NCBI RefSeq assembly: GCF_000876015.1
Contig: NZ_BBQM01000019.1
Span: forward strand, 248,001-312,000
Length of the DNA stretch: 64,000 nt
Origin: Cupriavidus basilensis
GTDB lineage: Bacteria > Pseudomonadota > Gammaproteobacteria > Burkholderiales > Burkholderiaceae
Reading direction: 5' to 3'
The notes beneath the pieces are model-generated. The model worked only from the letters and a program-made list of their open reading frames with translations. It was not told where the DNA came from and ran no database searches. How positions within the stretch are numbered: position 1 is the stretch's first letter; each line of letters begins with the position of its first letter. Below, piece after piece: positions 22,901-39,393 of the stretch. Both the position numbers and the translations under genes were made by a program.

Positions 22901-23344
22901 TCAGGACACGCCCGCGGGGTCGGCCTGCGCCGCCGTGTTGCGCAGGTGGATGAGGAATTCGCCGGTCATCATCACCCACAGCCGCAGCATGGCCTCTAGA
23001 TGGGCCTGGGTCACGCCGCCGGCGAGCACCACATCCATCTCGAGCACGATCAGCTCGCCGTGCGTGGCCAGCCGCGCGAAGCGCTTGCCGCGCTGCCAGC
23101 CGTCCAGCAGCGCGCGCGGCACCTCGCCGCCGCTGACGCGCAGCGCGCAGCTCAGCGTGAAATCGACGTGGCCGCCGGTCTCCGCGGCATTGCCCCACAG
23201 CACCTGGAAGCCCACGCCCTGGCTGGCGCTGTGCAACTGGGTCTTGCCATCGCGCTCGGTCGTGGTCACGGCGCAGCCGGCCGCGCGGATGGCGGCGGCC
23301 AGTTCGTCCGCATCGACGGCGGACAGTATCCTGATATCGTTCAT
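22901..23344 (-). CDS. YbjN-domain protein
   Basis: A 147-residue protein resembling the YbjN family (bacterial sensory-transduction-regulator fold): LSAVDADELAAAIRAAG at the start, a central hydrophobic strand FQVLWGN and FTLSCALRVSG, then ARLATHGELIVLEMDVVLAGG with the typical long C-terminal helix. YbjN proteins share the fold of type III secretion chaperones and are thought to bind partner proteins. It is the last gene of the eight-gene leftward operon that starts with the peptidyl-prolyl isomerase, 13 bases after the coiled-coil gene. Its role there may be chaperone-like, which is only inferred. Confidence 0.72.
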   Translation of the reverse strand: MNDIRILSAVDADELAAAIRAAGCAVTTTERDGKTQLHSASQGVGFQVLWGNAAETGGHVDFTLSCALRVSGGEVPRALLDGWQRGKRFARLATHGELIVLEMDVVLAGGVTQAHLEAMLRLWVMMTGEFLIHLRNTAAQADPAGVS

Positions 23345-23357
23345 GACGTGTCCCGGA

Positions 23358-24098
23358 TCAGTGGGCGGCGCCGGCAGCGGATGGCGCGGACGGCGCGGCG
23401 GGTGATGCGGCGGATGGCGCGGCGGATGGCGCGGACAGCGCCGCCACGCCGCGCGGATCGAACTTGTTCTCGTACAGCGCATCGCCGTAGGCCTGGGCCT
23501 GCGTCTCCAGCTTCACGCGCGCGCCCGCCGCGAAGGGATGGCGAAAGGCGACCGCGTCGGCCACGTCGAAATGCTCGTAGGCATCGAGGATTTCCTTGCC
23601 GATGGATTGCAGCCGCGCGTTCATCGCGCCGCAGCGCTCCAGTTGCGCGTCGCGTTCGCGCTGCGCGTCGAGCGCGCGGCCGCGCTCCTGCGTCATCGCC
23701 GCAAGCTGCTGCTGCAGCCCGCGCGCCGCCCGCTGCTGCTCGTCGCGCGCGGCATCGGCCTGGCGCGTCCGCTCGGCGGCGCTCTCCTCCACCTGGCGCT
23801 GCCTCGCCGCCAGCCCCTGCGCCCGGCCGCGGCTGGCTTCCAGCTCGGCCCGCGCTTCGGCCAGCTCCCTGGCCGCCGCCGCCTTGCCTTCCTCGGCCGC
23901 GCGCAGCGTCGCCTGCAGCGTGGCGCGCTCCGCCTGCATCTGCTGGTTCTGCGCGTTGAGCGCGCGCAGCTGCGTGCGCAGGCGGTCTTCCAGCGTGCCC
24001 TGCGGCTGCGCCTGGGCACCGGCCGGCGCGGGCACGGCAAGCAGCCATGCCGCGACGGCCACGCCCAGCGCCCCGTTCCTCATCCGTGATTGCAGCAT
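23358..24098 (-). CDS. exported coiled-coil protein
   Basis: A 246-residue periplasmic protein: signal peptide 1-28 (AVAAWLLAVPAPAGAQA), then a long Ala/Arg/Glu/Gln-rich helix with heptad character from about 36 to 160, a short more folded segment (CGAMNARLQSIGKEILDAYEHFD) and a low-complexity Ala-Pro-Ser tail of about 30 residues. No enzymatic motif is seen. It lies 8 bases after the putative porin gene, in the TpsB/TonB operon. A spacer or scaffold role across the periplasm is possible. The tail is encoded by a repetitive stretch that could vary in length between strains. Confidence 0.75.
   Translation of the reverse strand: MLQSRMRNGALGVAVAAWLLAVPAPAGAQAQPQGTLEDRLRTQLRALNAQNQQMQAERATLQATLRAAEEGKAAAARELAEARAELEASRGRAQGLAARQRQVEESAAERTRQADAARDEQQRAARGLQQQLAAMTQERGRALDAQRERDAQLERCGAMNARLQSIGKEILDAYEHFDVADAVAFRHPFAAGARVKLETQAQAYGDALYENKFDPRGVAALSAPSAAPSAASPAAPSAPSAAGAAH
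23376..23441. repeat. GCGGATGGCGCG-type imperfect repeats
   Basis: Several near-identical 12-15 bp units in the 3' end of the coiled-coil gene encode the Ala-Pro-Ser tail. Such tracts can expand or contract by slippage. Confidence 0.55.
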
Positions 24099-24106
24099 GG
24101 TCTACC

Positions 24107-25900
24107 TCAGAACTTGGCGTTCAGTTCGAGCATCAGCACGTTGATGGACAACGGGTCGCCATAGACCTCGCGCCCGCTCAGCCAGCGCGCCTGCAGCCAG
24201 GCGTTCTTGTCGATGCCGTAGGCCGCCCCCAGGAAATAGCCGCGCGCGTTGGTGCCGCCCAGGCGGAAATCCGGGTCGGTGTAGCCGTCCGGCACCGCAT
24301 CGGGCTCCAGGTACTTGTAGCCCATCATGAAATTCCACTGCCCGCGCGCCGACACCGCCTGGTTGCCGAAGATGGCCCGCACCAGGTAGCCGTTCGGGCC
24401 GCTGCGCCACTTGTCCTTGTACTCGCTCAGCGGCGTCGATCCGTCCACGCCTTCGTAGTGGTTGGCCGGGTAGGAGCGCGGGTCGGAGAACGGGCGGTCC
24501 TTGTTGTACGCCAGGTTGCGCACGTAGCTGGCCTGGAAGCTGAACGGCAGCCCGCCGAACACATGCGTGTCCCACTGCCCCGTTATGTTGAGCGGGCGGA
24601 AGTTCTGGGTCAGCCCGAAGAACTGCGGGTTCGAGGTGTCGTTCACGTCCACCGGCACGTTGTTGCGCAGCCCGAACAGCGTGTTGCCCTTCTGCATGAA
24701 CGCCGGGCGCGAATTGTCGGTGTCGCAGGAAGGCGAGGACGTCAGGCACGGCTGCGAGAACTGGCCGCGCATGTCGGTGAAGTGGTAATACGCCACCGCG
24801 CCCTTGAAGCGGTCCCCGCCGGCCAGCTTCCATTCCGCGCCGGCCTGCAGCGCGAACAGCCACTGGTTGCGGCTGTCCGACTTTTCCTGCGCGTTCGAGG
24901 GGAAATTGTCGTCGCTGTAGTTGACCGGGAACGCGCCGCCGGTCACGAACGCCGTGACGCCGCGCGTGCCGACGGACTTGCGCCAGGCGCCGGCAATCCC
25001 GTCGAAGTTCAGGTCGTTGGAGAACACCAGGTCGTTGTTGTCCAGGCCATAGAACGGGTTGCCGAAGCGGCCGGCGGTGACGTGGAACGCATCGGTGAAA
25101 CGGTAGTCCAGATAACCCTGGTCCAGCCAGATGCTCTTCTTGGCAAAACCGCCGCCGAGCGTCTGCGTGGTCGACACCGGCCCGTTGCTGCTGCCGGTGC
25201 CGATGCGGATGCCCGCGGTCAGGTCGTCGGAGACTGCGGCGGTGACGCCCAGCCGCGCGCGCAGGCGCAGCAGGTCGGTGCGGTTCTTGTCGGTGTTGAG
25301 CAGCGGCGGCAGCGAGTTGGCCGAGGGGCCGAAGTCAACCGGGCCGTTGGCGTTGACGGCCGCGTAGTCGACGGTCGGCGCATTGCCGCCGCCGTACAGG
25401 TTGGCCTGGTAGCGCACGCGCACGTCGCCGGACAGGGTGATGCGCGAGACCCAGTCGGGGAACGTGTTGGGCGTGGCCCAGTGTTCCTCCTTCGCCTGCG
25501 CGATGACCTCTTCCTTGACCTCGTCGCGGATCTGCTGGCGCACGCGCGGCGAGACATAGGGCACGCGCACGTCGCCCGGCTGCGCGCCGCCGGCCGCGGC
25601 GGCCACGGTCGCGGCCCCCGCTCCCGCCGCCACGCCCGCCGCCACACCTGCGGCCCCCGGCCCGGCCGCGGCCGGCGGCTGCGCCGCCGCGCGGGCCTGC
25701 GCCAGCAGCGTTTCGCCTTCCTCCCGGGTCAGCGTCCCGCGCATGACCAGGATGCGGATCAGGTTCTGCGTGACGTCCGCCGATGCCGGGGGCACGGTGC
25801 CCTGCGCATGGCCCTGCTGGCAGCACGCCGCAAGCGTCAGGGCGGCGGCCAGCGGCCGCAGCACCGGATGGCGAAGGCGCGATGCCTTGCACTGATTCAT
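24107..25900 (-). CDS. putative outer-membrane porin (Porin_5-like)
   Basis: A 597-residue outer-membrane protein. ATG 25900 has GAGGAGAG upstream and starts a signal peptide ending near GHAQG. Residues about 35-60 (VTQNLIRILVMRGTLTREEGETLLAQA) are the short helical element characteristic of the 'putative porin' family, followed by an Ala/Gly-rich linker. From about 150 the sequence alternates as a beta-barrel (SGDVRVRYQANLY, GRFGNPFYGLDNNDLVFSNDL, DFRLGGTNARGYFLGAAYG) and ends LELNAKF with the terminal phenylalanine needed for Bam-mediated insertion. It is 52 bases downstream of tonB. TonB-ExbBD plus a non-receptor porin is unusual; no plug domain or TonB box is evident. Confidence 0.82.
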   Translation of the reverse strand: MNQCKASRLRHPVLRPLAAALTLAACCQQGHAQGTVPPASADVTQNLIRILVMRGTLTREEGETLLAQARAAAQPPAAAGPGAAGVAAGVAAGAGAATVAAAAGGAQPGDVRVPYVSPRVRQQIRDEVKEEVIAQAKEEHWATPNTFPDWVSRITLSGDVRVRYQANLYGGGNAPTVDYAAVNANGPVDFGPSANSLPPLLNTDKNRTDLLRLRARLGVTAAVSDDLTAGIRIGTGSSNGPVSTTQTLGGGFAKKSIWLDQGYLDYRFTDAFHVTAGRFGNPFYGLDNNDLVFSNDLNFDGIAGAWRKSVGTRGVTAFVTGGAFPVNYSDDNFPSNAQEKSDSRNQWLFALQAGAEWKLAGGDRFKGAVAYYHFTDMRGQFSQPCLTSSPSCDTDNSRPAFMQKGNTLFGLRNNVPVDVNDTSNPQFFGLTQNFRPLNITGQWDTHVFGGLPFSFQASYVRNLAYNKDRPFSDPRSYPANHYEGVDGSTPLSEYKDKWRSGPNGYLVRAIFGNQAVSARGQWNFMMGYKYLEPDAVPDGYTDPDFRLGGTNARGYFLGAAYGIDKNAWLQARWLSGREVYGDPLSINVLMLELNAKF

Positions 25901-25952
25901 TGCTCTCTCCTCAAGGATCTCTCTCATGTCCGGCCCGGGTCCCGGCGGCGCG

Positions 25953-26648
25953 TCACGGGCGCCGCGCCTGCATCACCACGCGGGCCGGGAAGCTCAGGCC
26001 CGCCGGCGGCCGCTCGTCCACGCGGCCCAGCGCGCGCAGCGCCGCCAGCAGCGCTTCGTCGGTGGCCGCACTGCCCGTCGAGCGCACCAGCTCCACGCGC
26101 GTGATGCGCCCGCTCTCGTCCATCCACATGTTCACCATCACCTGCGGAAACGCGAGCCGCGCGGTGGCCGGGTTCTGCTGCACGGCGCGCTGCAGCGCGT
26201 AGGCCAGGTACTGGCCATACGTCGCGTTGCCCGCGCGGCCGGCGCCGCCGCTGCCCATGCCGTCGCCGCTGCCGACCTGGATGCCGCCCGCGCCGGCCTG
26301 CGCGTCGGCGTTCATGGTCACGCTCTGCGCCGCGTCGTTGGCCGGCCTGGGCGCTTCCGCGGGCCTGGGTGCCGGCTCCATCGGCTTGGGATCCGGCGTG
26401 CGGATGCGTTCTTGCTTGACCGGCTCCGGCGGCTTCTGCTCGGGCGGGGGCGGAGGCGGCGGGGGCGGCAGCGAGACCATCGGCGGCAGCCGCGGCGCCT
26501 CCTTTCTCGCGGACGCGGTATCGCCCGCCCATTTCCAGAGCGCCCAGCCGGCCAGCGCCAGCGCCAGCGCTGCCGCGGCGCCGGCCAGCGGTCCGCGCCA
26601 GCGCCGCCGTGGCGCGGCCTCGCGATCGTCGTACGGCTGCTGTTCCAT
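25953..26648 (-). CDS. TonB-family energy transducer
   Basis: A 231-residue protein with one N-terminal membrane anchor (about 18-42, LAGAAAALALALAGWALWKW), a proline-rich periplasmic spacer (MVSLPPPPPPPPPEQKPPEPVK at about 57-78, with Pro-Lys/Pro-Glu content typical of TonB) and a C-terminal domain (about 145-231) of TonB_C type: YALQRAVQQNPATARLAFPQVMVNMWMDESGRITRVELVRSTG. It transmits ExbB-ExbD energy to an outer-membrane partner. The gene is 8 bases after exbD. The natural partner in this operon is either the porin or the TpsB transporter, which is not normally TonB-dependent. Confidence 0.88.
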   Translation of the reverse strand: MEQQPYDDREAAPRRRWRGPLAGAAAALALALAGWALWKWAGDTASARKEAPRLPPMVSLPPPPPPPPPEQKPPEPVKQERIRTPDPKPMEPAPRPAEAPRPANDAAQSVTMNADAQAGAGGIQVGSGDGMGSGGAGRAGNATYGQYLAYALQRAVQQNPATARLAFPQVMVNMWMDESGRITRVELVRSTGSAATDEALLAALRALGRVDERPPAGLSFPARVVMQARRP

Positions 26649-26656
26649 GACGCGGC

Positions 26657-27064
26657 CTAGTTGGCTGGCTTGCCTGTCACCAGGCCCACCTGCTGCAGCT
26701 CCAGCCGCCGCAGCAGGTCCAGGACCTCGATGACCTTGCGGTACTGCACCGCGGCGTCACCCTTGACGATGACCGGGAAGTCCGGCGTCTGGGCGCGCTG
26801 CGCGCGCAGCCGGTCCTCCAGCTCCGCCAGCGTGACCGGAAACGCGTCCAGGTAGACCTGGCCCGAGTCGGTCACGGTGATGGCCTTGATCTTCTGCTCG
26901 GACAGGCTGGCGGAGGCGCTCGCCTTGGGCAGGTCCACCTTGATGCCCTGCACCGCGGCCGTGGTCATCAGGATGAAAATGATCAGCAGCACGAACGCCA
27001 GGTCCAGCAGCGGCGTGATGTTGATGTCGTCGTAGGGCTTGTCGTCGTCGTGCGTGGCGGCCAT
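26657..27064 (-). CDS. exbD: ExbD/TolR biopolymer transporter
   Basis: A 135-residue ExbD. The single membrane helix follows the motif DDINITPLLDLAFVLLIIFIL (about 12-32) with the proton-carrying aspartate in PLLD. The periplasmic domain (about 45-130) ends with YRKVIEVLDLLRRLELQQVGLVTG. It works with the ExbB-like channel encoded 12 bases upstream and TonB encoded 8 bases downstream. Confidence 0.92.
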   Translation of the reverse strand: MAATHDDDKPYDDINITPLLDLAFVLLIIFILMTTAAVQGIKVDLPKASASASLSEQKIKAITVTDSGQVYLDAFPVTLAELEDRLRAQRAQTPDFPVIVKGDAAVQYRKVIEVLDLLRRLELQQVGLVTGKPAN

Positions 27065-27076
27065 GATGGGTTCCCC

Positions 27077-28990
27077 TCAGAGCGCGCCGGCACCGGGGCC
27101 GCGCTCGCCGGCGCGGGCGGACGGGGCCATGCCCACGCCGCCCGCCCCCGCCTGCCGGGCCGGCACCAGGCCCGCTTCCGCGAAGCGGCGCATCAGCTCG
27201 CCCACGAGGCGGTCCATGTGGCCGCCGGCCTCGGCCTGCGCCACCTCGCTCTCGCTGCCCGCATGGAGCTCGGCCAGGCGCGTGACGAATTCGTCCACGA
27301 ACACGTCCATGTCCGCGCTCACGTTCTTGTTGCGCGTGAGCAGGTAGTTGTACGAGAACAGCGCCGGAATGGCGACGAACAGGCCCACCACGGTAGCCAC
27401 CAGCGCGGCCGCGATGCCGGGCGCGATGGCGTTGATGTTGACCTCGCCCGCCAGCGCCACCGCCGCGAACACCAGGATGATGCCGACCACCGTGCCCAGC
27501 AGGCCCAGGTACGGCCCGCCCGAGATCGAGATGGTCAGCAGCACCAGGCCGCGGTTCAGGCGCTGGTTCTCGCGCACGCGCGTGGCGTCCATCGACGCGC
27601 GGATGGCCTCGATGGTCTCGGCGGCCACGGCCTTGTTGCCGTCCTGCTCGCGCCGGCTGCGCAGCTCGCCCACGGCCACCTGGTACAGCCGGTACAGCGT
27701 GGAATCGGCCAGCCGCCGGGACAGGCCCGGGTTGGCCGGCACCGATTCCGCCAGCGCTTCGAGCCGGTGGCCGACCTTGCGGAACTGCGCCATGAATTCG
27801 TCATTGGCGCGCGACACGCGGCTCACGTAGGTGGCCTTGACGTAGGTGACCCACCACGACAGCACGGCCATGACGGCCAGCAGCCCGATCACGACCCATG
27901 CGTCCACCGGCACGTTGGTCAGGATGAAGCCGATCTCGCCGAAGCCGCTGCCGGCCTGCTTTTCGTCGGGGCCGTAGGCGAGCAGCTTCGAGTCGCTGCC
28001 CTGCATCGCGGCCTCCGCGGCCAGCAGCGCCGCGGGCCGCGCCACGCGCGAGATGCGCACCTCGTCGAGCTGGCCCGCGAAGCCCGGCAACTCGCCCGCG
28101 GGGTCGGCGCCGATCATGGCCGCGCCGGCAAACGCCGGCAGCGCGGCAGCCACCTTCGCCACCTCGCGGCCGTTGACCAGCAGCGCGACCTGCCCGCCGC
28201 CCGCGGTCATCGCCACGTGGGTCCACTGCTGCGCGCCCAGCGGCTCGCTGGCCGCGGCCTGCTGCTGGCCCACGCGCACATAGGGCACGCCGTTGGCCAG
28301 GCCCACCAGCAGCGCGTTGCCGGCCTCGCGGCGCGCGTACAGCACGCCGTTCGCGGCGGCGTCCGCGCGCACCCACGCGCCAAACGTCATGGCGCCGCCG
28401 GCGGCCACGCGCAGCGAATCGCTGGCGGGCAGGGCGATGCCCGCCTTGCCGTCCAGCTTCGCCGCCTGGCCGATCAGGCCCTCGCCCACCGGCACGCCGG
28501 CCTGCGCGTTGTTGTGGTACGCCGTGGCGTCGGCCGGCGCCGTGCCCGCTGCGCCGTCGAAGTGATAGACCGCCGTGTAGTCGGCGTCGAACGGCGACGC
28601 GCCGCCGGCCTGCGGGGCCTTGGCGTTGCCGTAGTACATCCAGATGTCCTGGCGCGCGCCGCCGGGCACCGCCGGCATATCCACCCAGACCAGCCCCATG
28701 CCCAGCAGGGAATCGAACTGCTCGACCTGGTGCGCGAGCGGGGTCTTGTCGTCGGCCGCGACGAAGCGCAGGTCGCCGCCCTTGTCCTGCACGGCGTCGA
28801 ACTGGAAGTTGCCCGCGTGCAGGCGCACCAGCACCGGCATGCGTCCGAGCGGCTCCGCGATGTTGGCGCCCTTGGGCGTGGTATCGACCGAGACCGGCTT
28901 GCGGAAGGACCAGTCCTGTTGCCACCAGGCTTGTGCCACCTGCGGCAGACAGGCACCGAGCATGGCGAGGGATAGCAGCAATTTACGCAT
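27077..28990 (-). CDS. ExbB/MotA-type proton channel with N-terminal DUF2341 and LamG-like domains
   Basis: A 637-residue fusion. A signal peptide (1-21, ending VAQA-WW) leads to a DUF2341 domain (about 22-145: WWQQDWSFRKPVSVDTT, PVLVRLHAGNF, DIWMYYGNAKAP), a concanavalin/LamG-like sandwich (about 150-330: AVYHFDG, AKLDGKAGIALP, MTFGAWVRAD, QQWTHVAMT, LLVNGREVA, GQLDEVRISRVAR), a membrane helix (about 354-386) and a MotA/TolQ/ExbB channel (about 390-575: SGGPYLGLLGTVVGIILVF, GIAAALVATVVGLFVAIPALF). The sandwich should face the periplasm. ExbB proteins are usually about 240 residues, so about 350 extra residues form a possible carbohydrate- or protein-binding sensor. It lies between tpsB (32 bases) and exbD (12 bases). 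Domain calls are firm; the coupling is inferred. Confidence 0.88.
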   Translation of the reverse strand: MRKLLLSLAMLGACLPQVAQAWWQQDWSFRKPVSVDTTPKGANIAEPLGRMPVLVRLHAGNFQFDAVQDKGGDLRFVAADDKTPLAHQVEQFDSLLGMGLVWVDMPAVPGGARQDIWMYYGNAKAPQAGGASPFDADYTAVYHFDGAAGTAPADATAYHNNAQAGVPVGEGLIGQAAKLDGKAGIALPASDSLRVAAGGAMTFGAWVRADAAANGVLYARREAGNALLVGLANGVPYVRVGQQQAAASEPLGAQQWTHVAMTAGGGQVALLVNGREVAKVAAALPAFAGAAMIGADPAGELPGFAGQLDEVRISRVARPAALLAAEAAMQGSDSKLLAYGPDEKQAGSGFGEIGFILTNVPVDAWVVIGLLAVMAVLSWWVTYVKATYVSRVSRANDEFMAQFRKVGHRLEALAESVPANPGLSRRLADSTLYRLYQVAVGELRSRREQDGNKAVAAETIEAIRASMDATRVRENQRLNRGLVLLTISISGGPYLGLLGTVVGIILVFAAVALAGEVNINAIAPGIAAALVATVVGLFVAIPALFSYNYLLTRNKNVSADMDVFVDEFVTRLAELHAGSESEVAQAEAGGHMDRLVGELMRRFAEAGLVPARQAGAGGVGMAPSARAGERGPGAGAL

Positions 28991-29022
28991 AACAGTGCTC
29001 CGTTGGGTGCGCGCCGGCCCCA

Positions 29023-30678
29023 TCAAAAAGTAGTGCGAAGGTTGAAGTTGACGGTCGGGGAACCCGCCTCGGTACGCTGCGCGTCGCGCAACGGCCAGCC
29101 CACGTCGAGCTTGCCGGTGACGTTCCGGAAGAGCCGGATGCTGGAGCCGAAGCCCACGCCGAGCAGCGTGTAGCTGCGGCGCTGCTCCGGCAGCGGGTCG
29201 CGCAGCTTCAGCGTGGCGGCGTCGAAGAAGCCGTAGACGCGCCATTCGTCGACACCGGGCCACAGCCAGTCCGCGTACGACGGCGAGCGCACCTCCAGCG
29301 AGGCGAGCAGGCCATCGTCCGCGGTGGCCTCCGCCGAGTAATAGCCGCGCACGCTGGTCGCGCCGCCGGCGGCGAACTGCTCGCCCGAGACCAGCGCGCC
29401 GGATGCCACCTGGAAGGCGCCGCGCGCATAGAGCTCCACGCCGCCCTTGAGCGTCTGCGTGTGCGTGCCGTCGCCCTTGAGGTAGATGAAGTCCGGCGAG
29501 GCGCGGTAGCGCTTGGCGCCGTACTCGGCCCACCCGCTGCCCACGCCGAAGCCGTTGAAGCCGCCTGTCAGCGCAAGCGCGGCCGAGCTCTGCGAGCGCT
29601 CGCCGAAGCGGTACGCATTGAACGACAGCGTCAGCGGCAGGTAGCGCAGCGGCACGTTGGACGCGGCCCCGCCCAGCGACACCGCCTCGTCCATGTCCTT
29701 GAAGTCGATGCCGAGCCCGAGCGAGCCGGACCAGTCGCCCGCGGGCGGCAGCGCGTAGTTGCCCTGGATGCCGAACACCTTGCCCTTGCCCAGCACGCTG
29801 GTGCCGCCCGTGGTGGCCACGTTGCTGTCCGAGACATAGCCGGTGGCCTGCACGCTGTACGGCGTGCCCGCGAACGGCGCGAGATAGCTGAACGACCACA
29901 CGCGCGCCTCGTTCAGGTCCTGCGGCGCGCCAAAGAACGTCACCGACGCCTGGTGCCCCATCTGCCAGAGGTTGTCATGGCCGATGGTGGCCGAGGCGCG
30001 CAGCGCATGCGTGTCGACGCTGTGGTCGTTGTTGAGCATCACGCTGCCGCTGAGCGGCCGGTGGTCCTCCACCTTCAGCTCCACGTCCACGGTCTGCGGC
30101 AGCGAGCCCGGGCGCACCATCGGCACGACCTGGCGGTTGGGCGAGGCGTTGAGCGCGGTCAGCTCTTTCTGCGCGGCATTGAAGTCAGGCACCTTGCCCT
30201 CGGCCAGCGACGGCACCGCGTCGCGCACCGCGGCCGGGGAATAGTGCTCGGCGCCGACCACGCGCAGGCGTCCCACGCGCGTCTCGCCGACCTGCAGCAG
30301 CACCACGCCGCCGGCCACGCGCTGCTCGGGCAGTTCCACCACCACGGACTGGTAGCCGCGCTTCTGGTAGCGCAATTCCAGCGCGGCGCGCGCGCCTTCG
30401 ACATCGTCGGCGGTGCGCGACGGCCCCAGGAACGGCGCCACCGCGTCCTCGATGTCGCCCTCGTCGAGCATGGTGTTGCCGCGCACCACGTATTCGTTGA
30501 CGTCGAACCGGCGCGGCTCGCTCGCGGCCGGTTGTGCGCCCGGTTGTGCGGCCGGTTGTGCGCCCGGCTGTGCCGCGGCCGCGGCCTGCGCGGCCGCCGC
30601 GGCGAGCGCCAGCAGCACCGCCCCCGCCCTGCGTCGGCGCGCGCGGGCCCCGATCCCGTGTGTCCGGGATGTCTTCAT
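29023..30678 (-). CDS. TpsB two-partner secretion transporter (ShlB/FhaC/HecB family)
   Basis: A 551-residue outer-membrane pore for a TpsA exoprotein. ATG 30678 (AGGGG upstream) begins a signal peptide (about 1-37); a short AQPG/AQPA repeat follows; POTRA domains lie at about 65-215 (VNEYVVRGNTML, RYQKRGYQSVVVELPEQ, VGRLRVVGAEHYSP, QVVPMVRPGSLPQTVDVELKV); and the Omp85-type barrel covers the rest, with the conserved lid-loop motif SVRGYYS and a terminal strand ending NFNLRTTF. The whole frame upstream to 31710 is open but overlaps the isomerase gene and is rejected. It is the second gene in the operon. Its cargo is probably the giant TpsA at 48476-60574, 18 kb away, the only TPS-domain protein in the window. 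Confidence 0.9.
   Translation of the reverse strand: MKTSRTHGIGARARRRRAGAVLLALAAAAAQAAAAAQPGAQPAAQPGAQPAASEPRRFDVNEYVVRGNTMLDEGDIEDAVAPFLGPSRTADDVEGARAALELRYQKRGYQSVVVELPEQRVAGGVVLLQVGETRVGRLRVVGAEHYSPAAVRDAVPSLAEGKVPDFNAAQKELTALNASPNRQVVPMVRPGSLPQTVDVELKVEDHRPLSGSVMLNNDHSVDTHALRASATIGHDNLWQMGHQASVTFFGAPQDLNEARVWSFSYLAPFAGTPYSVQATGYVSDSNVATTGGTSVLGKGKVFGIQGNYALPPAGDWSGSLGLGIDFKDMDEAVSLGGAASNVPLRYLPLTLSFNAYRFGERSQSSAALALTGGFNGFGVGSGWAEYGAKRYRASPDFIYLKGDGTHTQTLKGGVELYARGAFQVASGALVSGEQFAAGGATSVRGYYSAEATADDGLLASLEVRSPSYADWLWPGVDEWRVYGFFDAATLKLRDPLPEQRRSYTLLGVGFGSSIRLFRNVTGKLDVGWPLRDAQRTEAGSPTVNFNLRTTF
30528..30575. repeat. four tandem 12-bp units in tpsB
   Basis: CCGGTTGTGCGC-type units (one with a GG end, the last diverged) encode the Ala-Gln-Pro-Gly/Ala repeat just after the signal peptide of TpsB. 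Confidence 0.85.
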
Positions 30679-30767
30679 ACCCCTACCCTTTTTTGTTGTC
30701 CGGCAACGCCGGCAGGCTGGCGGCTGGCCGCCCTGGCATGGCCGGCCCCCGCCGGCCCGTCCCGCGT

Positions 30768-31679
30768 TCAGCGCACCGCCGAGATGACGCTGTCCAGCGC
30801 GGACTGGTCCACGCTGGCGGCCGACGCCGCGGTCTGCTGCTTGAGGTAGGCCTGCGCGGCGTCGCTCTGGTATTGCTGGCGCAGCTTCGCGCGCAGCGGC
30901 TCCCTGACTTCGTCGAGCGGGCGCAGCCCGGCCTCGCGCACCGCGATCAGCTTCAGCACGTGCAGGCCGGTGGGCGAACGCACCGGCTCGGATACCGCGC
31001 CCGGCTTCAGCGCCACCACCGCGGCGCGGATCTCGGGCAGCATCTCCGTCTCCGGCAGCCAGCCGGTATCGCCGCCGTTCGCGGCCGAGCGCGGCTCCTG
31101 CGAGCGCGCCCTGGCCAGCGCCGCGAAATCGGCGCCGGCGCCGCGCGCCTGGCGCGCGATGCTCTCGGCCTCCTTGCGCGCGTTGGCGCGCGCCGCCTCG
31201 TCGCCCTCGGCCGCCACGTAGATCTGCGCCACGTGGTACAGCTTCGGCGCGGTGAAGGCGGCGGGACTGGCGTCGTACGCCGCCTTGATCTCGGTGTCCG
31301 ACGGATACCCCTGCGGCGGCTGCGTCACCGATTCCAGATAGCTGCGCACGATGACCGACTGCTCCGCGTCGAGCACCATCGCGGCGACTTCCGGGCGCCT
31401 GGCCCAGCCCTTGGATTCGGCTTCGGCCAGCACGCTCTTCTGCGCCAGGCGGCTCTGCACCAGCCGCTCCAGCGTCGGCTTGTCCGCCGCGAGCCGGGCG
31501 CGCGACGGCGCGTCCAGCGCGCGCAGGAACGTCTCCAGCTCCGCCTGCGTGACACTGGCCTTGCCGCTCTGCGCGACGATCTTGTCGGCGGCCACGACGG
31601 TGCCGGGTGCCACGGCAAGTACCGAGAACAGCGCCGCGCCGGCAATGGCACGGGGAACAACGAAGATCAGCTTGCGCAT
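30768..31679 (-). CDS. periplasmic parvulin-type peptidyl-prolyl isomerase
   Basis: A 303-residue SurA/PpiC-like chaperone. Signal peptide about 1-31 (ending VVAA-DK), an N-terminal helical chaperone region (about 40-130, VTQAELETFLRALD, LVQSRLAQKSVLAEAE), a parvulin domain at about 143-245 (YHVAQIYVA, FAALARARSQEPRSAANGGDTGWLP, SEPVRSPTGLHVLKLI) and a C-terminal helix. ATG 31679 has AGGAGG 9 bases upstream; a GTG three bases earlier is also possible. It heads the TpsB operon, 89 bases upstream of tpsB. Bordetella pertussis Par27, a parvulin chaperone that helps FhaB reach FhaC, is a direct precedent for a PPIase dedicated to two-partner secretion. Confidence 0.9.
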   Translation of the reverse strand: MRKLIFVVPRAIAGAALFSVLAVAPGTVVAADKIVAQSGKASVTQAELETFLRALDAPSRARLAADKPTLERLVQSRLAQKSVLAEAESKGWARRPEVAAMVLDAEQSVIVRSYLESVTQPPQGYPSDTEIKAAYDASPAAFTAPKLYHVAQIYVAAEGDEAARANARKEAESIARQARGAGADFAALARARSQEPRSAANGGDTGWLPETEMLPEIRAAVVALKPGAVSEPVRSPTGLHVLKLIAVREAGLRPLDEVREPLRAKLRQQYQSDAAQAYLKQQTAASAASVDQSALDSVISAVR

Positions 31680-31781
31680 CACGGTGGACCTCCTGTAGCG
31701 TTTCTCTCAACGACGGTCCACGGCGGCCGGCGGGTGCCGATACTCAGGCAATCCAGCCAGGAAATTTCTGGGAGCGCAGCG

Positions 31782-32174
31782 TTGAAACGACTTCATGCAT
31801 TTGCGATTGCGGCGATTCTTACGGCGCACGGTGACGTGGTTGTTGCGGAATCTGGGCAGATTTCCGGCGCGCCGCGGCCGGCGGAAGACACCGTGCCATG
31901 CGTCAGCGTCGAGGTGAACGGCCAGCGCGCGCCCGCGCTGGCATGCCTGAACGACAGGCTCGAGCAGGCGGCAAGAGGCGGCGCCAGGGGCGGCAACAAG
32001 CCGGCCGCGGGCGCACTGAGCGAACAGCTCGCGGGCCTGCCATCGAACCAGGCAGGCATGTTCAATTACTCGGCCACCGCCAACCGGATGGGCAATACCT
32101 TCGGCTCGTCGGTCAATGCGCAGCGTCCGCCGCAACGGCCCGTCTACCTGCCCGCGCTCGGGCGCCGCCCCTGA
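31782..32174 (+). CDS. small exported protein, TTG start
   Basis: A 130-residue protein I do not recognise. The TTG at 31782 is preceded by GGGAG at 7 bases and starts a convincing signal peptide (MKRLHAFAIAAILTAHGDVVVA). The mature part has two cysteines (C40 and C55, in DTVPCVSVEVNG and ALACLNDRL), likely disulfide-bonded, then a Gly/Asn/Ser-rich low-complexity tail (MFNYSATANRMGNTFGSSVN). It is divergent from the isomerase-TpsB operon, with about 100 bases between starts, so the two may be co-regulated. No enzyme motif. Confidence 0.68.
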   Translation: MKRLHAFAIAAILTAHGDVVVAESGQISGAPRPAEDTVPCVSVEVNGQRAPALACLNDRLEQAARGGARGGNKPAAGALSEQLAGLPSNQAGMFNYSATANRMGNTFGSSVNAQRPPQRPVYLPALGRRP

Positions 32175-32628: not shown

Positions 32629-32862
32629 ATGACGGAAAATCAGTGGGTCATTAATGTCACCAAATTCAGCGCCAATCCATCGCGGGCCCTGCAGGCCGCG
32701 CAAGAGCAGCCGGTGCTGGTGGTCAAGCACCAGCGCCCGCATGCCTACCTGGTGTCCGCCTCGTGGTGGCGGGAAGTCATGACCCTGCTCGCGGAAAACC
32801 GCGCCCACGAAGCGGAGCGGCCCGCGCCATCGCCGTGCGGCAACGAGAACGGCAACGCCTGA
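32629..32862 (+). CDS. Phd/YefM-family antitoxin-like protein, orphan
   Basis: A 77-residue protein. Residues 8-58 (INVTKFSANPSRALQAAQEQPVLVVKHQRPHAYLVSASWWREVM) follow the Phd/YefM pattern: a short strand, the helix that contacts DNA, then the strand pair with V-K-H-x-R-P-x-A-Y-L-V-S in place of the usual ItrxGkpxAvLvs. GGGAAAAAG precedes the ATG. The tail is short and poorly conserved. No toxin (RelE, YoeB, Doc or PIN type) is encoded on either side, so it is an orphan antitoxin or a repurposed DNA-binding protein. It sits at the edge of an AT-rich stretch, in keeping with acquisition. Confidence 0.65.
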   Translation: MTENQWVINVTKFSANPSRALQAAQEQPVLVVKHQRPHAYLVSASWWREVMTLLAENRAHEAERPAPSPCGNENGNA

Positions 32863-33143: not shown

Positions 33144-35498
33144 ATGCCGCTCGCCCGCATCCCCTCGCGCCACGTGTTGCCGCTCGCCACCGCGCTGCTG
33201 TTGAGCGCCGCCATGCCCGCGGCGCAGGCCGCCGCCCGCCAGGTCACGCTGGACTTCGACAACGCGGACATCTCGCAGGTGGTGCAGGCCATCGCCAGCG
33301 CGGACGGCAAGACCGTGTTCGTCGATCCGCGCGTCAAGGGCACCGTCAGCCTGTCCTCGGACCAGCCGCTCGGCACCGCGGACGCCATGCGCATGCTGCA
33401 GTCGGCATTGCGGCTGCAGGGCTATGCGATGGTGGCGGACGGCAGGACCGTCAAGGTCCTGCCGGAGGCGGACGCGAAGCTGCAGGGCATGCCCATCGTC
33501 ACCGGCGCCGGCGGCGGCGACGCGGAGGCGAGCGGCGGCCAGGTCATCACGCGCGTGTTCCGCCTGTCCCGCGAATCGGCCACCAGCCTCGTGCCCGTGC
33601 TGCGGCCGCTGATCTCCGCCAACAACACCATCAACGCCTACGCCAACAACAACACCATCGTCGTGACCGACTACGCCGACAACGTCAGGCGCATCGGCGG
33701 CATCATCGCGGCGGTGGACCGCGGCACGCCCGCCGGCGAGGTGGAGGTGGTGGCGCTGGAAAACGCCGTGGCCAGCGACGTGGCCGTGCTGCTGCAGCGC
33801 ATGCTCGACGGCGGCAGCGGCGGCGGCACCGGTGGCAGCGCCGGGTCGGCAAGCAACTCGGGCGGCTCCGGCGGCGAAGGCGGCGCGCCACGCATTGCCG
33901 TGGTGGCGGAGCCGCGCAGCAACACGCTGCTGATCCGCGCGCCCAGCCCCGAGCGCATGCGGCAGGCGAAGGCGCTGGTGGAACGGCTGGACCGCCGCTC
34001 CACGCGGCCCGGCAACATGTACATGGTGCCGCTGAAGAACGCCAGCGCGGTCACGCTGGCGCAAACGCTGCGCGCGCTGGTGGCGGCGGACGCCACGCTC
34101 TCCATGCAGTCGTCCGGGGCCGGCGGCGGCCAGGGCGCGGCCGCGCCCGCCACGGCCCTGCAGGCGTCGTATCCGTCGATGCCGCCCCTGCCCTCCGGCA
34201 CGAGCAGCTCGTCGTCCGGCCTGGGCTCGTCGGGTGGCCTCGGCACATCGGGCACATCGGGAGGATCGGGCAGCGCCAGCGGGCTCGGCAGCGGCAGCTT
34301 CAACAGCGGCGGCAACGCCAGCCAGTCCACCACGGGCGGCACCATCCAGGCCGACCCGGCCACCAACTCGCTGCTGATCACCGCGTCCGAGCCGGTGTAC
34401 CGCAACCTGCGCGCGCTGATCGACGAGCTCGACACCCGCCGCGCGCAGGTCTACGTGGAATCGATGATCGTGGAGATCACCTCCGACAACGCCGCCGAGC
34501 TGGGCATCCAGTGGCAGGCGCAGAACGGCCGCGCGTTCGGCGGCACGAACTTCGGCAGCGGCGGCCAGAACATCGTCAACGTGGGCGCCGACACGGCCGC
34601 GGGCGGCGGCATCCTGGCCGGCCTGGCGTCGAGCCTGCCGGGCGCGGGCGGCCTCAACATCGGCGTGCTCAGCAGCAAGCTGGGCCTGAACGTGCTGCTG
34701 CGCGCGCTCTCGAAGCAGAGCGGCGTCAATATCCTGTCCACGCCCAACCTGATGGTGATGGACAACGAGGAGGCCCACATCATCGTCGGCCAGAACCTGC
34801 CCTTCGTCACCGGGTCCTACGCGCAGACCGGCTCGTCCGCCTCCGTCACGCCGTTCCAGACCATCGAGCGGCAGGACGTGGGCCTGACGCTGCGCGTGCG
34901 CCCGCAGATCACCGACGGCGACAGCGTCAGGATGCAGATCTACCAGGAGACCTCGGACGTGATCGATCCGGGCGGCGTCAACGGCCCCACCACCAACAAG
35001 CGCGCGCTGGAAACGGCGGTGATGGTCGATGCCGGGGACGTCATCGTGCTCGGCGGCCTGATGCAGGACAGCTACAACGAAGGCGTGCAGAAGGTGCCCG
35101 GGCTGGGCGACATCCCGCTGATCGGCGGCCTGTTCCGCTACGAGAACAAGCAGCGCAGGAAGACCAACCTGATGGTGTTCCTGCGGCCCGTGATCATGCG
35201 CTCGCCGCAGGCCGCGCGCGACGTGGTGATGACCCGCTACGACTACATGCGCGGCGAAGGCGCGCGCGCGCCCACCGACAACTGGTTCGTGCGCGACGAC
35301 GACACGCCGCGGCTGCCGCAGGCCGACGGCATGCCGCCGACCTCGCCGCTGGAGCTCGGCAATAGGCGCACGCCGGTGCCCGCGCGGCCGCAGGCCACCG
35401 ATTCGTCGCTGATGCTGCCGCCGCCGCGCGAGCATGAGGCACCGGCCGCGCCATCCCCGGCCGCGCCGGATGCCGCGCGCCCCGGAGACAACGGATGA
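33144..35498 (+). CDS. gspD: type II secretion secretin
   Basis: A 784-residue outer-membrane secretin that forms the exit channel of the T2SS. Signal peptide 1-31 (ending AAQAA), N0 domain about 33-110 ([22 protein letters not shown]), N1-N3 about 130-430 ([57 protein letters not shown]), and the secretin core about 435-700 with the [14 protein letters not shown] signature. Two unusually long Gly/Ser-rich inserts lie in N2 (about 223-248) and N3 (about 350-400). A Pro/Ala-rich tail follows (about 715-784). No clear ribosome-binding site before the ATG. It overlaps gspE by ATGA. Confidence 0.96.
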
Positions 35499-36967
35499 AC
35501 GCCACCGCCGTCGAGCCCGACCTCACCCCGCCCACCCTGCCCGCCGGCGTGTCGGCGCGCCTGGTGCCCTATGGCTGGGCGCGCGCCGCGCGGCTGCTGC
35601 TGATCGCGCGCGCGGAAGGCCCGCCCACCGCGTGGGTGTGCGAGGAAACGCCGCCCGAGGCGATCGCCGAGGCGGCCCGCACCTTCGGCGTCGAAGACTG
35701 GGTCACGGTCGCGGCCGAGCACCTGCGCCAGGCGCTGTCGCAGGCGTATGCCGGCAACGAAGGCTCCGCCGCGCAGGTGGTCGGCGAGGTCGAGGGCGAA
35801 GTGGATCTGTCGCGCCTGATGCAGGAACTGCCGGCCGTGGAAGACCTGCTGGAAGCGGAGGACGACGCGCCGGTGATCCGCATGATCAACGCGCTGCTGA
35901 CCCAGGCCGCGCGCGAAGGCGCGTCGGACATCCATATCGAGGCCTTCGAGCAAAGCTCCGTCGTGCGGCTGCGCGTGGACGGCGCCATGCGCGACATCGT
36001 CAAGCCCAAGAAGGCGCTGCACGGCGCGCTGATCTCGCGCATCAAGATCATGGCGCAGCTGGACATCGCCGAAAAACGCCTGCCGCAGGATGGCCGCATC
36101 ACGCTGCGCGTGGCGGGCCGCCCGGTGGACGTGCGGGTCTCCACGCTGCCCACCACGCACGGCGAGCGCGCCGTGCTGCGCCTGCTGGACAAGGAAGCGG
36201 GCCGGCTCGACCTGGCGCGCCTGGGCATGGGCGCCGCCACGCTGCAGCGCTTCGACCGCCTGATCGGCCAGCCGCACGGCATCGTGCTGGTGACGGGCCC
36301 GACCGGCTCCGGCAAGACCACCACGCTCTACGCCGCGCTGTCGCGGCTGGACGCCGGCACCACCAACATCATGACGGTGGAAGACCCGGTCGAATACGAC
36401 CTCGACGGCATTGGCCAGACCCAGGTCGGCGAGCGCATCGGCATGACCTTCGGCAAGGCCTTGCGCGCGATCCTGCGCCAGGACCCGGACGTCATCATGA
36501 TCGGCGAGATCCGCGACCTGGAGACCGCGCAGATCGCGGTGCAGGCGTCGCTGACCGGCCACCTGGTGCTGGCCACGCTGCACACCAACGACGCGGCGTC
36601 CGCGGTCACGCGGCTGACGGACATGGGCGTGGAGCCCTACCTGCTGTCGTCGTCATTGCTGGGCGTGCTGGCGCAGCGTCTGGTGCGGCGGCTGTGCCCG
36701 GCGTGCCGGCGGCTGGAAGACGGACGCTGGCGGCCGGTGGGCTGCGACCGCTGCGGCCCCACCGGCTTCCAGGGGCGCTCGGGCGTCTACGAATTGCTGG
36801 TGGTGGACGACGCGGTGCGCCGCCAGGTTCACCAGCAGGCCGCGGACGCCGACATCCGCGCCGCGGCCGTGGCCGGCGGCATGCTGACCATGCGCGAGGA
36901 CGGCCAGCGCTGGATCGACGCCGGCGACACCACGCTCGAGGAAGTGCTGCGCGTGACCAAGGACTGA
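35495..36967 (+). CDS. gspE: type II secretion ATPase
   Basis: A 490-residue cytoplasmic hexameric ATPase that powers pseudopilus assembly. Walker A GPTGSGKT (268-275), the aspartate box (DIHIEAFEQ near 145-153), Walker B region [12 protein letters not shown] (330-341), the histidine box [12 protein letters not shown], and the GspE-type zinc module C401/C404 and C417/C420 (CPAC and CDRC). ATG 35495 overlaps the gspD stop. The next gene starts 13 bases after its stop. Confidence 0.97.
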
Positions 36968-36980
36968 CAAGGAGGGCGCC

Positions 36981-38192
36981 ATGCCCGCTTTTCGTTACGA
37001 AGCCGTGGACTTTGGCGGCAAGCTCCATCGCGGCGTGCTGGAGGCCGAGGGATCCAAGGCCGCGCGCGGCCAGCTGCGCACGCGCGGCCTGACGCCGCTG
37101 AAAGTGCTGCCGGTGACGGCCGCGGCCAACGGGGGCGGCGTCACGCTGTTCGGCGGCAGGCTGGGCGCGCAGGAACAGGCCCTGTTCACGCGCCAGCTGT
37201 CCAGCCTGCTGAGCGCCGGCCTGCCGCTGAACGAAGCGCTGTCCGCGCTCGCGGACCAGGCCGAGCGCGCCTACGTGCGCCACCTGGTCAGCGCCATCCG
37301 CGCCGACGTGGTGTCCGGCCAGTCGCTCTCCGGCGCGCTCTCGCAGCATCCGCGCGATTTTCCCGACATCTACCGCGCGCTGGTGTCCGCCGGCGAGCAC
37401 AGCGGCAAGCTGCACCTGGTGCTGACGCGGCTGGCGGACTACGTCGAGAGCCGCAACGCGCTCACGCAGAAGATCAAGCTGGCGTTCACCTACCCCGCCG
37501 TCGTCACCGTGGTGGCCTTCGGCATCGTGGTGTTCCTGCTGACCTACGTGGTGCCGCAGGTGGTGGGCGTGTTCACCACCACCAAACAGAAGCTGCCGAT
37601 GATCACCGAGGTCATGCTCGCGTGCAGCGACTTCGCGCGCGCGTGGGGATGGCTGGCCGCCATCGGCCTGGTGCTGCTGGGCTGGCTGATACGGCGCATC
37701 CTGGCGCAGCCCGGTCCGCGCCATCACTGGCACAGCTGGCTGCTGACCGCGCCGCTGCTGGGCAAGCTGGTCAGCGGCTACAACACCGCGCGCTTCGCCA
37801 GCACGCTGGCCATCCTGACCAGCGCCGGGGTGCCCATCCTGCGCGCGCTGCAGGCCGCCGGCGAGACGCTCAACAACGTCGCGCTGCGCGCCACCGTGGA
37901 AGACGCCATCTCGCGCGTGCGCGAGGGCACGTCGCTGGCGCGCTCGCTGGCCTCGGCCAACCAGTTCCCGCCGGTGCTGATCCATTTGATCCGCTCGGGC
38001 GAGGCCACCGGCAGCCTGCCCGAGATGCTCGAGCGCGCGGCGCAGGGAGAGGCCAGCCAGCTGGAACGCCGGACCATGTTCATCACCGGCCTGCTGGAAC
38101 CGGCGCTGATCCTGGGCATGGGGCTGATGGTGCTGATGATCGTGCTGGCGGTGCTGATGCCGATCCTGGAGATCAACCAGATGGTGCGGTAG
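36981..38192 (+). CDS. gspF: type II secretion inner-membrane platform protein
   Basis: A 403-residue GspF with two repeated T2SSF domains (about 70-192 and 270-395) and three membrane helices (near 170-190, 220-240, 370-395). Motifs: LFTRQLSSLLSAGLPLNEALSAL in the first and RFASTLAILTSAGVPILRALQAAGETL in the second repeat, ending with LMVLMIVLAVLMPILEINQMVR. AAGGAGGG precedes the ATG. It is the last gene of gspDEF and is convergent with gspC. Confidence 0.96.
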   Translation: MPAFRYEAVDFGGKLHRGVLEAEGSKAARGQLRTRGLTPLKVLPVTAAANGGGVTLFGGRLGAQEQALFTRQLSSLLSAGLPLNEALSALADQAERAYVRHLVSAIRADVVSGQSLSGALSQHPRDFPDIYRALVSAGEHSGKLHLVLTRLADYVESRNALTQKIKLAFTYPAVVTVVAFGIVVFLLTYVVPQVVGVFTTTKQKLPMITEVMLACSDFARAWGWLAAIGLVLLGWLIRRILAQPGPRHHWHSWLLTAPLLGKLVSGYNTARFASTLAILTSAGVPILRALQAAGETLNNVALRATVEDAISRVREGTSLARSLASANQFPPVLIHLIRSGEATGSLPEMLERAAQGEASQLERRTMFITGLLEPALILGMGLMVLMIVLAVLMPILEINQMVR

Positions 38193-38242
38193 TTGCCGCT
38201 GGCGACGCGGCAGGACACGGCCCTGCACGCGCCGCCGGCAGG

Positions 38243-38785
38243 TCATCGGCCGGCGCGGGGGATATTGCTCACCAATGCCGGGCCGGGCGGGACGTCGCCG
38301 CTCGTCGCCGCCGCCAGCACCGGCAGCACGCGCTGCGGCGCCATCGCCACCTCCTGCGCGACGCCGCCCCGCTTCAGCACCACCGAGCGCGCGCGCACCT
38401 CGGACAGCACCAGCCCGGGCGCCGCTTCCCGGCCCGCGTGCACGAGCCGTGGCGCGGCGCCGGCGATGGAGAGCACCGCCGCCCCGTCGTCCCGCCCGAG
38501 CGGCCGGATCACGCCACCGACCGTCACCTTCAGTCCCTGCGCCTGCGCCGGCCCGGCGCCGAACAGCTCGCCGCCCGCGCCGGCGCGCGCCGGGGCCGCG
38601 GCGACCTTTTCCGCCCCCGGCGTCATCTCCGGCGTCGCGGCGATCTGCAGTCCCCAATAGACCACGACCGCCACGCAAGCCACGCCGCCGGCCACCGTGG
38701 CCGCGGGCACGGCCAGTTCCCCCGGCGAACGCCGGCACCACTCGCCCCATCGCGCCAACCTCTGCAACGTCAGCAGCCTCGTCAT
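38243..38785 (-). CDS. gspC: type II secretion GspC, short form
   Basis: A 180-residue GspC on the strand opposite to the other gsp genes, between gspF and gspG, as is usual in Burkholderiales. It has a cytoplasmic N terminus, one membrane helix (about 28-52, LAVPAATVAGGVACVAVVVYWG) and a homology-region domain (about 90-165: LFGAGPAQAQGLKVTVGGVIRPL, AAVLSIAG, GLVLSEVRARSVVLKRGG) that contacts the secretin N0 domain. There is no PDZ or coiled-coil domain after it. AGGAGGG precedes ATG 38785. Divergent from gspG. Confidence 0.85.
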   Translation of the reverse strand: MTRLLTLQRLARWGEWCRRSPGELAVPAATVAGGVACVAVVVYWGLQIAATPEMTPGAEKVAAAPARAGAGGELFGAGPAQAQGLKVTVGGVIRPLGRDDGAAVLSIAGAAPRLVHAGREAAPGLVLSEVRARSVVLKRGGVAQEVAMAPQRVLPVLAAATSGDVPPGPALVSNIPRAGR

Positions 38786-38949
38786 CGCAACGGCCCTCCT
38801 GGCATGAACTTTCGGTGTCGGAAACCGCGCAGAAAGTGTCACCACTTTGCCCCTCGCGCTGGCCAGAATCATTTGGCCCGCCCTGGTAGCGCGACCCCGG
38901 CGACTGTGTTGTATCGCGCGATCATGACAACCCTCTTGCGGAACCTGCG

Positions 38950-39393
38950 ATGACCCCGACACGACACCGACGCAAACGGCCGGCCAGCGGCTTCACCCTG
39001 ATCGAGATCATGGTGGTCATCGTGATCCTCGGGGTGCTGGCCGCGCTGGTGGTGCCCAAGATCATGAGCCGCCCCGACGAGGCCCGCATCGTGGCCGCGC
39101 GCCAGGACATCGCCTCGATCATGCAGGCGCTCAAGCTCTACCGCCTGGACAACAGCCGCTATCCGTCGACCGACCAGGGGCTCGTCGCGCTGGTGTCCAG
39201 GCCGACCACCGAGCCGGTGCCCAACAACTGGAAAGGCGGCGGCTACCTGGAAAAACTCCCCAAGGATCCCTGGGGCCACCCGTACCAGTACCTGAACCCG
39301 GGCGTGCACGGCGAGATCGACATCTTCAGCCTGGGCGTGGACGGGCAGGCCGGCGGGAGCGGCAATGATGCCGACATCGGTTCCTGGGAATAG
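38950..39393 (+). CDS. gspG: type II secretion major pseudopilin
   Basis: A 147-residue major pseudopilin. The prepilin cleavage site is SG-FTLIEIMVVIVILGVLAALVVP with E at position +5 of the mature protein. The globular part has the GspG markers ALKLYRLDNSRYPSTDQGLVAL and GGYLEKLPKDPWGHPYQYLNPG, plus the calcium-site region DIFSLGVDGQAGGSGNDADIGSW. Its 3' end overlaps gspH by 29 bases. Confidence 0.97.
   Translation: MTPTRHRRKRPASGFTLIEIMVVIVILGVLAALVVPKIMSRPDEARIVAARQDIASIMQALKLYRLDNSRYPSTDQGLVALVSRPTTEPVPNNWKGGGYLEKLPKDPWGHPYQYLNPGVHGEIDIFSLGVDGQAGGSGNDADIGSWE

Follow-up and report, generated by a model that had tools for sequence, protein, structure and literature searches.

A two-partner secretion operon of Cupriavidus basilensis with its own TonB-ExbBD motor and porin, and the association of these genes with DUF3739-class TpsA exoproteins

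According to its usual description, type V secretion needs no energy source, and the force that moves a TpsA exoprotein through the pore is presented as an open question in a review of the field (PMC5422565). The described system closest to the one treated here is the PUMA3 regulon of Pseudomonas aeruginosa, in which the extracytoplasmic function (ECF) sigma factor VreI controls the Hxc type II secretion system (T2SS), tpsA, tpsB, exbBD homologues, PA0696-PA0698 and a PpiC isomerase (PMC2729926). A later list of the PUMA3/VreI regulon gives pdtA, phdA, pdtB, exbB2, exbD2, tonB4, the putative porin PA0696, PA0697, the YbjN-family protein PA0698 and the PpiC protein PA0699, and its TonB system was called 'still uncharacterized' in 2020 (PMC7035377). 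In this study, we analyzed a stretch of 64,000 nucleotides from Cupriavidus basilensis (RefSeq assembly GCF_000876015.1, contig NZ_BBQM01000019.1, positions 248,001 to 312,000 of the forward strand), hereafter the window, whose own numbering is used for all coordinates. It holds a minus-strand operon of eight genes at 22901-31682, encoding a PpiC-type isomerase, the two-partner secretion (TPS) transporter TpsB, a DUF2341-LamG-ExbB fusion, ExbD, TonB, a Porin_5 porin, a coiled-coil protein and a YbjN-like protein, together with a giant TpsA that ends in a DUF3739 domain. In two genome samples the motor was found only and always with this one subclass of TpsA, which makes the energy question directly testable in soil Pseudomonas.

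The resemblance to PUMA3 was assessed from the published gene lists, PAO1 itself lying outside the searches. All eight operon genes are matched by family or description, the likeness to PA0697 being one of position, and TpsA, a PhdA-like gene and a nearby T2SS are shared as well, the PhdA match falling below the PF02604 cut-off and hence being weak. The published order TpsB-ExbB-ExbD-TonB-porin-YbjN-PpiC is kept, with the coiled-coil gene set aside, in 21 of 21 named Pseudomonas loci, whereas in the window PpiC comes first and TpsA lies about 17 kb off, beyond T2SS genes. The vreAIR genes were not seen within the window, as judged from clusters of sigma factor and FecR proteins (open reading frames of at least 110 codons) and from a search for a second TonB-like match. 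The Discussion of the 2009 study already placed TPS, exbBD and PA0696 homologues beside PUMA3 in six other genomes, namely two of Pseudomonas fluorescens and one each of Pseudomonas entomophila, Burkholderia vietnamiensis, Rhodopseudomonas palustris and Janthinobacterium, the last two having three tpsA clusters and one tpsB-exbBD-PA0696 cluster (PMC2729926). Since the PUMA3 gene set has been in print since 2009, the association itself is not new, and an earlier reading of the window from its sequence alone (the original prediction) was mistaken in taking the motor to be without precedent. The new element is the strictness and breadth with which TpsA, motor and porin are associated. The 2009 work read the association as a regulon, and its available portions hold no proposal of a motor within the secretion pathway (PMC2729926); the open-access titles and abstract openings among the matches listed, the subscription literature lying outside this scope, likewise yielded no description of a DUF3739, DUF2341-ExbB and Porin_5 association or of a powered TPS system.

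Other known systems share parts of this design. Classical TPS pairs such as FhaB/FhaC and CdiA/CdiB have in common with it a TPS-domain exoprotein and a TpsB made of POTRA domains and a barrel, whereas the window type adds a co-occurring motor and porin, a C-terminal DUF3739 and, mostly, a TpsB with no apparent H1 plug helix. In HxuABC of Haemophilus influenzae, a TPS system cooperates with a TonB-dependent outer-membrane protein (PMC5422565), as may be the case here; HxuC, however, is a TonB-dependent transporter, while the operon of the window encodes a motor of its own and a porin in which the plug domain is missing. With TonB-ExbBD and Tol-Pal motors the operon shares the ExbB/TolQ channel, the ExbD aspartate and the TonB C-terminal domain; it differs in the large DUF2341-LamG region fused to ExbB, and the TolB and Pal families were not found by Pfam among the eight operon products, which sets it apart from a Tol-Pal system. 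On the A subunits of such ion channels, DUF2341 has been noted as an N-terminal appendage whose function is unknown (PMC12505986, 2025).

In rising coordinates the intergenic gaps of the operon are 13, 8, 25, 8, 12, 32 and 89 bases, and seven of its eight products have profile support, the exception being the coiled-coil protein. TpsB (29023-30678; minus strand, as throughout the operon; ATG checked) exceeds the cut-offs of both families expected of a type Vb transporter, with POTRA (PF08479, E 1.7e-13) and ShlB-type barrel (PF03865, E 5.6e-14) matches; its N-terminus is rich in Ala, Pro and Gln with no apparent H1 plug helix, and CdiB (6wim) is its sole match among solved structures. The ExbB fusion (27077-28990) runs from a signal peptide through two lectin-like domains, DUF2341 (PF10102, E 5.4e-16) and LamG (PF13385, E 1.5e-16), to an ExbB/TolQ proton channel (PF01618, E 8e-29). 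Compared with structures as a whole-fusion profile, one half resembles TolQ/ExbB and the other is LamG/pentraxin-like; the channel is closer to TolQ than to ExbB by NCBIfam score, under both cut-offs, and the fusion is the sole DUF2341 match of its genome. The motor is completed by ExbD (26657-27064; PF02472, E 1.7e-30) with its membrane aspartate, and by TonB (25953-26648), in which an N-terminal anchor and a Pro-rich spacer precede a C-terminal domain scoring 36.2 bits against TIGR01352 (cut-off 27.1; PF13103, E 1.5e-6). The porin (24107-25927; PF16930, E 1.3e-179) matches Porin_5 over its full length (598.6 bits against a cut-off of 22, positions 3-535 of 535) and is weakly similar to OprP/O (PF07396, E 7.5e-5). 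The remaining products are the PpiC-type peptidyl-prolyl isomerase, a parvulin (30768-31682; PF00639, E 4.6e-22; PF13145, E 4.4e-20), which is probably exported, judging from its N-terminal signal or anchor; the exported coiled-coil protein (23358-24098; no Pfam family), PA0697-like by position only; and the YbjN-family protein (22901-23344; PF10722, E 4.5e-11), which has no apparent signal peptide and gave weak matches among solved structures, mainly ankyrin repeats and probably due to chance.

The TpsA gene (48476-60619, minus strand) encodes 4047 residues from a putative start at ATG 60619, in an open frame of 4114 codons (48479-60820), and has the plan of a type Vb exoprotein, with a TPS domain near the N-terminus (PF05860, E 5.9e-22) and DUF3739 at the C-terminus (PF12545, E 4e-38). 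T2SS genes occupy part of the roughly 17 kb between it and the operon. Its genome has seven TPS-domain matches, of which this protein alone carries DUF3739, a domain matched nowhere else in that genome. An orphan TpsB without a TpsA was rejected on account of this gene. The original prediction had described eight leftward genes with gaps of 8-89 bases, forming a TPS system with its own TonB-ExbBD motor, isomerase and porin; positions and gap sizes agree, and both the profiles and the recurrence described below uphold the dedicated motor, isomerase and porin, while its interpretation overlooked the precedent, the TpsA of the window and the restriction to the DUF3739 subclass.

This restriction emerged from two samples of genomes, for which E-value limits were fixed before the searches, the division of Porin_5 matches into full-length and partial being made after the results were seen. 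Among 398 Pseudomonadota genomes, DUF3739 (E<=1e-8) was found in 14, the DUF2341-ExbB fusion (E<=1e-60) in 14, and Porin_5 in 19, in 14 of which it is full-length (best E per genome <=3.9e-142). The sets with DUF3739, the fusion and full-length Porin_5 are the identical 14 genomes, from 11 genera and 7 families (hypergeometric probability of one pairwise overlap 4e-26, relatedness ignored); in one of them, G422, the motor is a partial match at a contig edge. Motor and porin stand one to one, with 15 matches of each in these 14 genomes, while over both samples DUF3739 can be present in several copies: G342, G511 and G636 have three of them and G601 has four. In the sample of the organism's own family, 125 genomes, TpsA and motor each occur in 14, again identical, and the porin in 13 of these; the exception, G559, is a 70% complete assembly whose motor gene stops 36 bases from the contig end. 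Within the genus, three of 11 genomes have both TpsA and motor and eight have neither. The two samples share three positives, giving 25 distinct positive genomes with no TpsA/motor discordance at the limits used. TPS domains as such were present in 91 of the 125 family genomes, and because the motor was found in only 14 of these, it is tied to the DUF3739 subclass rather than to TPS generally; a role as a general TPS accessory was rejected on the same count. In some drafts, e.g., G275, G407, G588 and G611, TpsA and motor lie on separate contigs yet co-occur, which contig breaks may partly explain.

Gene order was compared over 97 loci, made up of the window, 16 loci from a search of 150 genomes of the order (long matches to the fusion in 17, counting the own genome), and the best 80 of at least 194 relatives from a pattern scan, based on a 16-sequence alignment, of one genome for each of 84,980 species. 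The 80 were picked by similarity to the query and give no estimate of frequency, for which the genome samples serve; at least one pair, L038 and L127, whose contigs are equally long, looks like one locus entered twice. Relatives include Burkholderia, Pseudomonas, Xanthomonadales, Bradyrhizobium, Sphingomonas, Acetobacteraceae, Methylosinus and Verrucomicrobia assemblies, and a similar order recurs in alpha-, beta- and gammaproteobacteria and in Verrucomicrobia, the loci of the latter being mainly from metagenome assemblies and the phyletic samples covering Pseudomonadota. Conservation beyond close relatives, which the original prediction had set as its own test, therefore extends to several classes and to a second phylum, the latter through metagenome assemblies. 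With family models seeded by the proteins of the window, ExbD was detected in 97 loci, TonB in 95, the porin in 92, TpsB in 75, PpiC in 48 and YbjN in 47; for the coiled-coil protein, whose hidden Markov model (HMM) was noisy (143 matches in 90 loci), the blast count was used instead, with cluster members in 68 loci, the window included. In all five loci with no porin match, the available sequence ends within 1.6 kb downstream of ExbB. TpsB lies immediately upstream of ExbB in 66 loci, and TpsB or TpsA was found in 95, the two exceptions being loci whose upstream sequence amounts to 43 bases and 1 base. The commonest order is (TpsA)-TpsB-ExbB-ExbD-TonB-porin-coiled coil-YbjN-PpiC; the other 47 PpiC-bearing loci place this gene downstream of ExbB, whereas in the window it comes first. 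In several Xanthomonadales, Sphingomonas and Verrucomicrobia loci, a TPS-domain frame follows the porin. Chance or a gene-calling artefact was rejected, as the ExbB-ExbD-TonB-porin core recurs with TpsB or TpsA in most loci.

Individual loci show variations of their own. A tandem pair of ExbD genes follows the ExbB fusion in L048, L049, L050, L117 and L133, and in L112 and L118 TPS-domain frames stand upstream of the motor on the opposite strand. In a Paraburkholderia assembly (L062:3-4660, plus strand), four frames upstream of TpsB each have a DUF3739 match, which suggests either a row of TpsA C-terminal modules or a TpsA gene in decay.

Several features of the proteins bear on how the system may work. 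The membrane aspartate of ExbD was present by pattern in 100 of 102 family matches, and the motor therefore looks competent. The H1 plug helix of TPS transporters sits before POTRA1, as in FhaC. In the TpsBs of these loci, the spacer that separates the signal-peptide core from POTRA1 is 19 residues long at the median (n=72), whereas the same rule gave 40 to 68 for five further TpsBs of the own genome. With so short a spacer, most TpsBs of these loci seem to be without the helix; an H1 plug helix is mentioned for TPS in the literature (PMC5422565). The porin begins with a helix, followed by a low-complexity Ala/Gly/Pro linker, a conserved V-x-Y motif and the barrel, and V113, Y115, P117 and V120 are each kept in at least 90% of 65 aligned sequences. 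A regular expression for the motif matched 76 of 92 porins and missed the window's own (V-P-Y-V-S); alignment columns were preferred to it, since some stop-to-stop frames had false N-terminal extensions. Having no plug family but just this motif after a linker, the porin was kept out of the TonB-dependent transporters. At the C-termini of TpsAs, after the DUF3739 region comes a variable linker, which leads into a short hydrophobic strand of the form PS-hydrophobic-x-V-x-V-hydrophobic-G. A loose pattern recovers this strand in 37 of 42 proteins, and it is a second candidate contact for TonB. Additional TonB-like domains were found by HMM in 24 of the 97 loci (e.g., L055, L056, L060, L070, L100, L106, L110 and L120). 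Of eight such proteins scanned, four carry STN as in VreA, three of these together with TonB_2 (two over the cut-off), while the other four are small exported proteins identified by a custom HMM, Pfam contributing a single sub-threshold TonB_2 match.

We consider it very probable that the motor, the porin and the DUF3739 TpsA take part in a single process. We hold it slightly better than an even proposition that the operon and the distant TpsA constitute one energised TPS machine for giant exoproteins of the DUF3739 class. In such a machine, TpsA would pass into the periplasm, where PpiC, and perhaps the coiled-coil protein, would prevent it from folding, while YbjN may act in the cytoplasm. 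TpsB, seemingly without the H1 plug helix, would thread TpsA outward via its POTRA domains. The ExbB fusion and ExbD would form a proton channel driving TonB. The principal outer-membrane contact of TonB would be the dedicated porin, with which it would most likely pair along the V-x-Y strand, and the pull of TonB may drive, gate or complete the secretion and surface assembly of TpsA. The choice of the porin as TonB target, in preference to TpsB and the TpsA tail, is our inference.

A number of observations weigh against this proposal. The type Vb definition includes the absence of a dedicated inner-membrane energy source; a motor is encoded and co-occurs here, and its use in secretion is our hypothesis, as no experiment met in the literature demonstrates such use and the energy step is one that we infer. 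Other type V systems have been reconstituted in vitro without external energy (PMC5422565). In P. aeruginosa overproducing VreI, a tonB (PA0695) insertion mutant was as virulent as the wild type in zebrafish, and the tpsA, tpsB and PA0696 mutants likewise showed wild-type virulence, a readout that is not one of secretion (PMC2729926). Because tpsA and tpsB mutants behaved alike, the tonB result speaks neither for nor against energised secretion. Five of the 398 genomes, all of one family (f55), have a partial Porin_5 (E ~1e-30) without TpsA or motor. TpsB was not seen in the flank of 22 of the 97 loci, 20 of which have a DUF3739 or TPS-domain frame upstream of ExbB, and the spacer of TpsB reaches at least 38 residues in 12 of 72 proteins, up to 67. 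As for the porin, Pfam detects no plug domain in it, it has no match among solved structures even using a 65-sequence profile, and the idea that its V-x-Y strand could pair with TonB is a guess from sequence; its weak OprP/O similarity is also compatible with uptake, as is the phosphate control in P. aeruginosa.

The use of energy, by way of the porin, for TpsA secretion or surface assembly, to which we give a little more than even chances, nevertheless ranks ahead of uptake and of action on the TpsA tail. Uptake, which we regard as unlikely, would have TpsA capture a nutrient, perhaps a phosphate-rich one, at the cell surface for TonB-driven import by the porin, in the manner of HxuA/HxuB with HxuC. 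In HxuABC, a TPS pair and a TonB-dependent transporter are indeed combined (PMC5422565), the porin shows weak similarity to phosphate-selective porins (PF07396, as above), the P. aeruginosa cluster is phosphate-controlled and lies beside a phosphatase-secreting T2SS (PMC7035377, PMC4971064), and the window holds T2SS genes and a PstS-like binding protein; yet the recurrent clusters of the flanks (seven representatives named by profile) yielded no recognisable inner-membrane importer, no plug-domain receptor is found in the operon by Pfam, and one porin for up to four TpsAs would be odd if each captured its own ligand. Nor does a Pho box lie near the operon, the window's three matches to the consensus, versus 1.88 expected, being at chance level. 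Less likely again is a motor acting after secretion, with TonB pulling the C-terminal tail of a surface TpsA to anchor, retract or release the adhesin. The conserved strand after the variable linker (37 of 42) suits this role, as TonB C-terminal domains bind strands of that kind, but such a tail could simply cap the solenoid, and the equally strict partnership of the porin would be left unexplained.

Two further explanations separate the motor from TpsA altogether. If the genes merely moved and were regulated jointly as an island while serving separate processes, their patchy distribution inside one genus would follow, but neither sample contains a genome with TpsA and no motor or the reverse at the thresholds used, the order is preserved over classes, and the two co-occur even on different contigs, though contig breaks may account for part of this; we consider such hitch-hiking very unlikely. 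Least probable of all is a motor serving cell-surface signalling through a PUMA3-type sigma factor, with TPS adjacent merely as part of a shared regulon. Clusters of ECF sigma factors and FecR proteins (checked representatives) do occur in 22 and 23 loci, together 30 of 97, and some of the additional TonB-like domains in 24 loci are STN-fused as in VreA; still, 63 of the 97 loci have none of the sigma factor, FecR or TonB-like genes within flanks of up to 10 kb, beyond which such genes may lie, and the window has none by the same clustering.

Should the energised secretion machine be borne out, it might represent a distinct branch of type V secretion, in which a proton-driven TonB-ExbBD motor exports or assembles giant DUF3739 TpsAs through a plugless porin; we put this forward tentatively, as somewhat less probable than its opposite. 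On that reading DUF3739, DUF2341-ExbB and full-length Porin_5 would be parts of one machine, a corollary for which the chances likewise stay below even. As a speculation, the second TonB domain of VreA-like proteins could compete for the same outer-membrane partner and in this way report the load of the machine. The association gives DUF2341 on ExbB, Porin_5 and DUF3739 a shared context, and supplies a provisional hypothesis on the role of the TonB4 system of P. aeruginosa, so far uncharacterised.

The surroundings of the operon contain further genes. Divergent from it lies a gene for a small secreted protein with two conserved cysteines (31782-32174, plus strand; no Pfam family), homologues of which were found by iterated HMM in 32 of the 97 loci, the window included, from alpha-, beta- and gammaproteobacteria; it is possibly an unnamed component of the system. 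The PhdA-like protein (32629-32862, plus strand), in the position of PA0691 phdA, reaches 25.3 bits against PF02604 (E 1.3e-5; cut-off 29.8), and its iterated-HMM matches extend to 30 loci including the window, the weakest of them probably due to chance. The T2SS genes (33144-39393, plus strand) comprise gspD at 33144, gspE at 35495, gspF at 36981 and gspG at 38950, gspE being identified by profile (PF00437, E 2.5e-146) and the others named from sequence and order. T2SS as a core part of the system was not supported, with relatives near at least five of the other 96 loci (flanks of up to 10 kb). Between the T2SS genes and TpsA stands the gene for the PstS-like protein (PBP_like_2; 45541-46722, plus strand), which recalls the phosphate control of the P. 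aeruginosa cluster. Immediately downstream of the TpsA gene, a Hint_2 domain protein is encoded at 46971-48425 (minus strand; E 9e-47). About 47 kb beyond the window, the same genome has a second TpsB and TPS-domain pair (C44:358884-361399), with no DUF3739 match.

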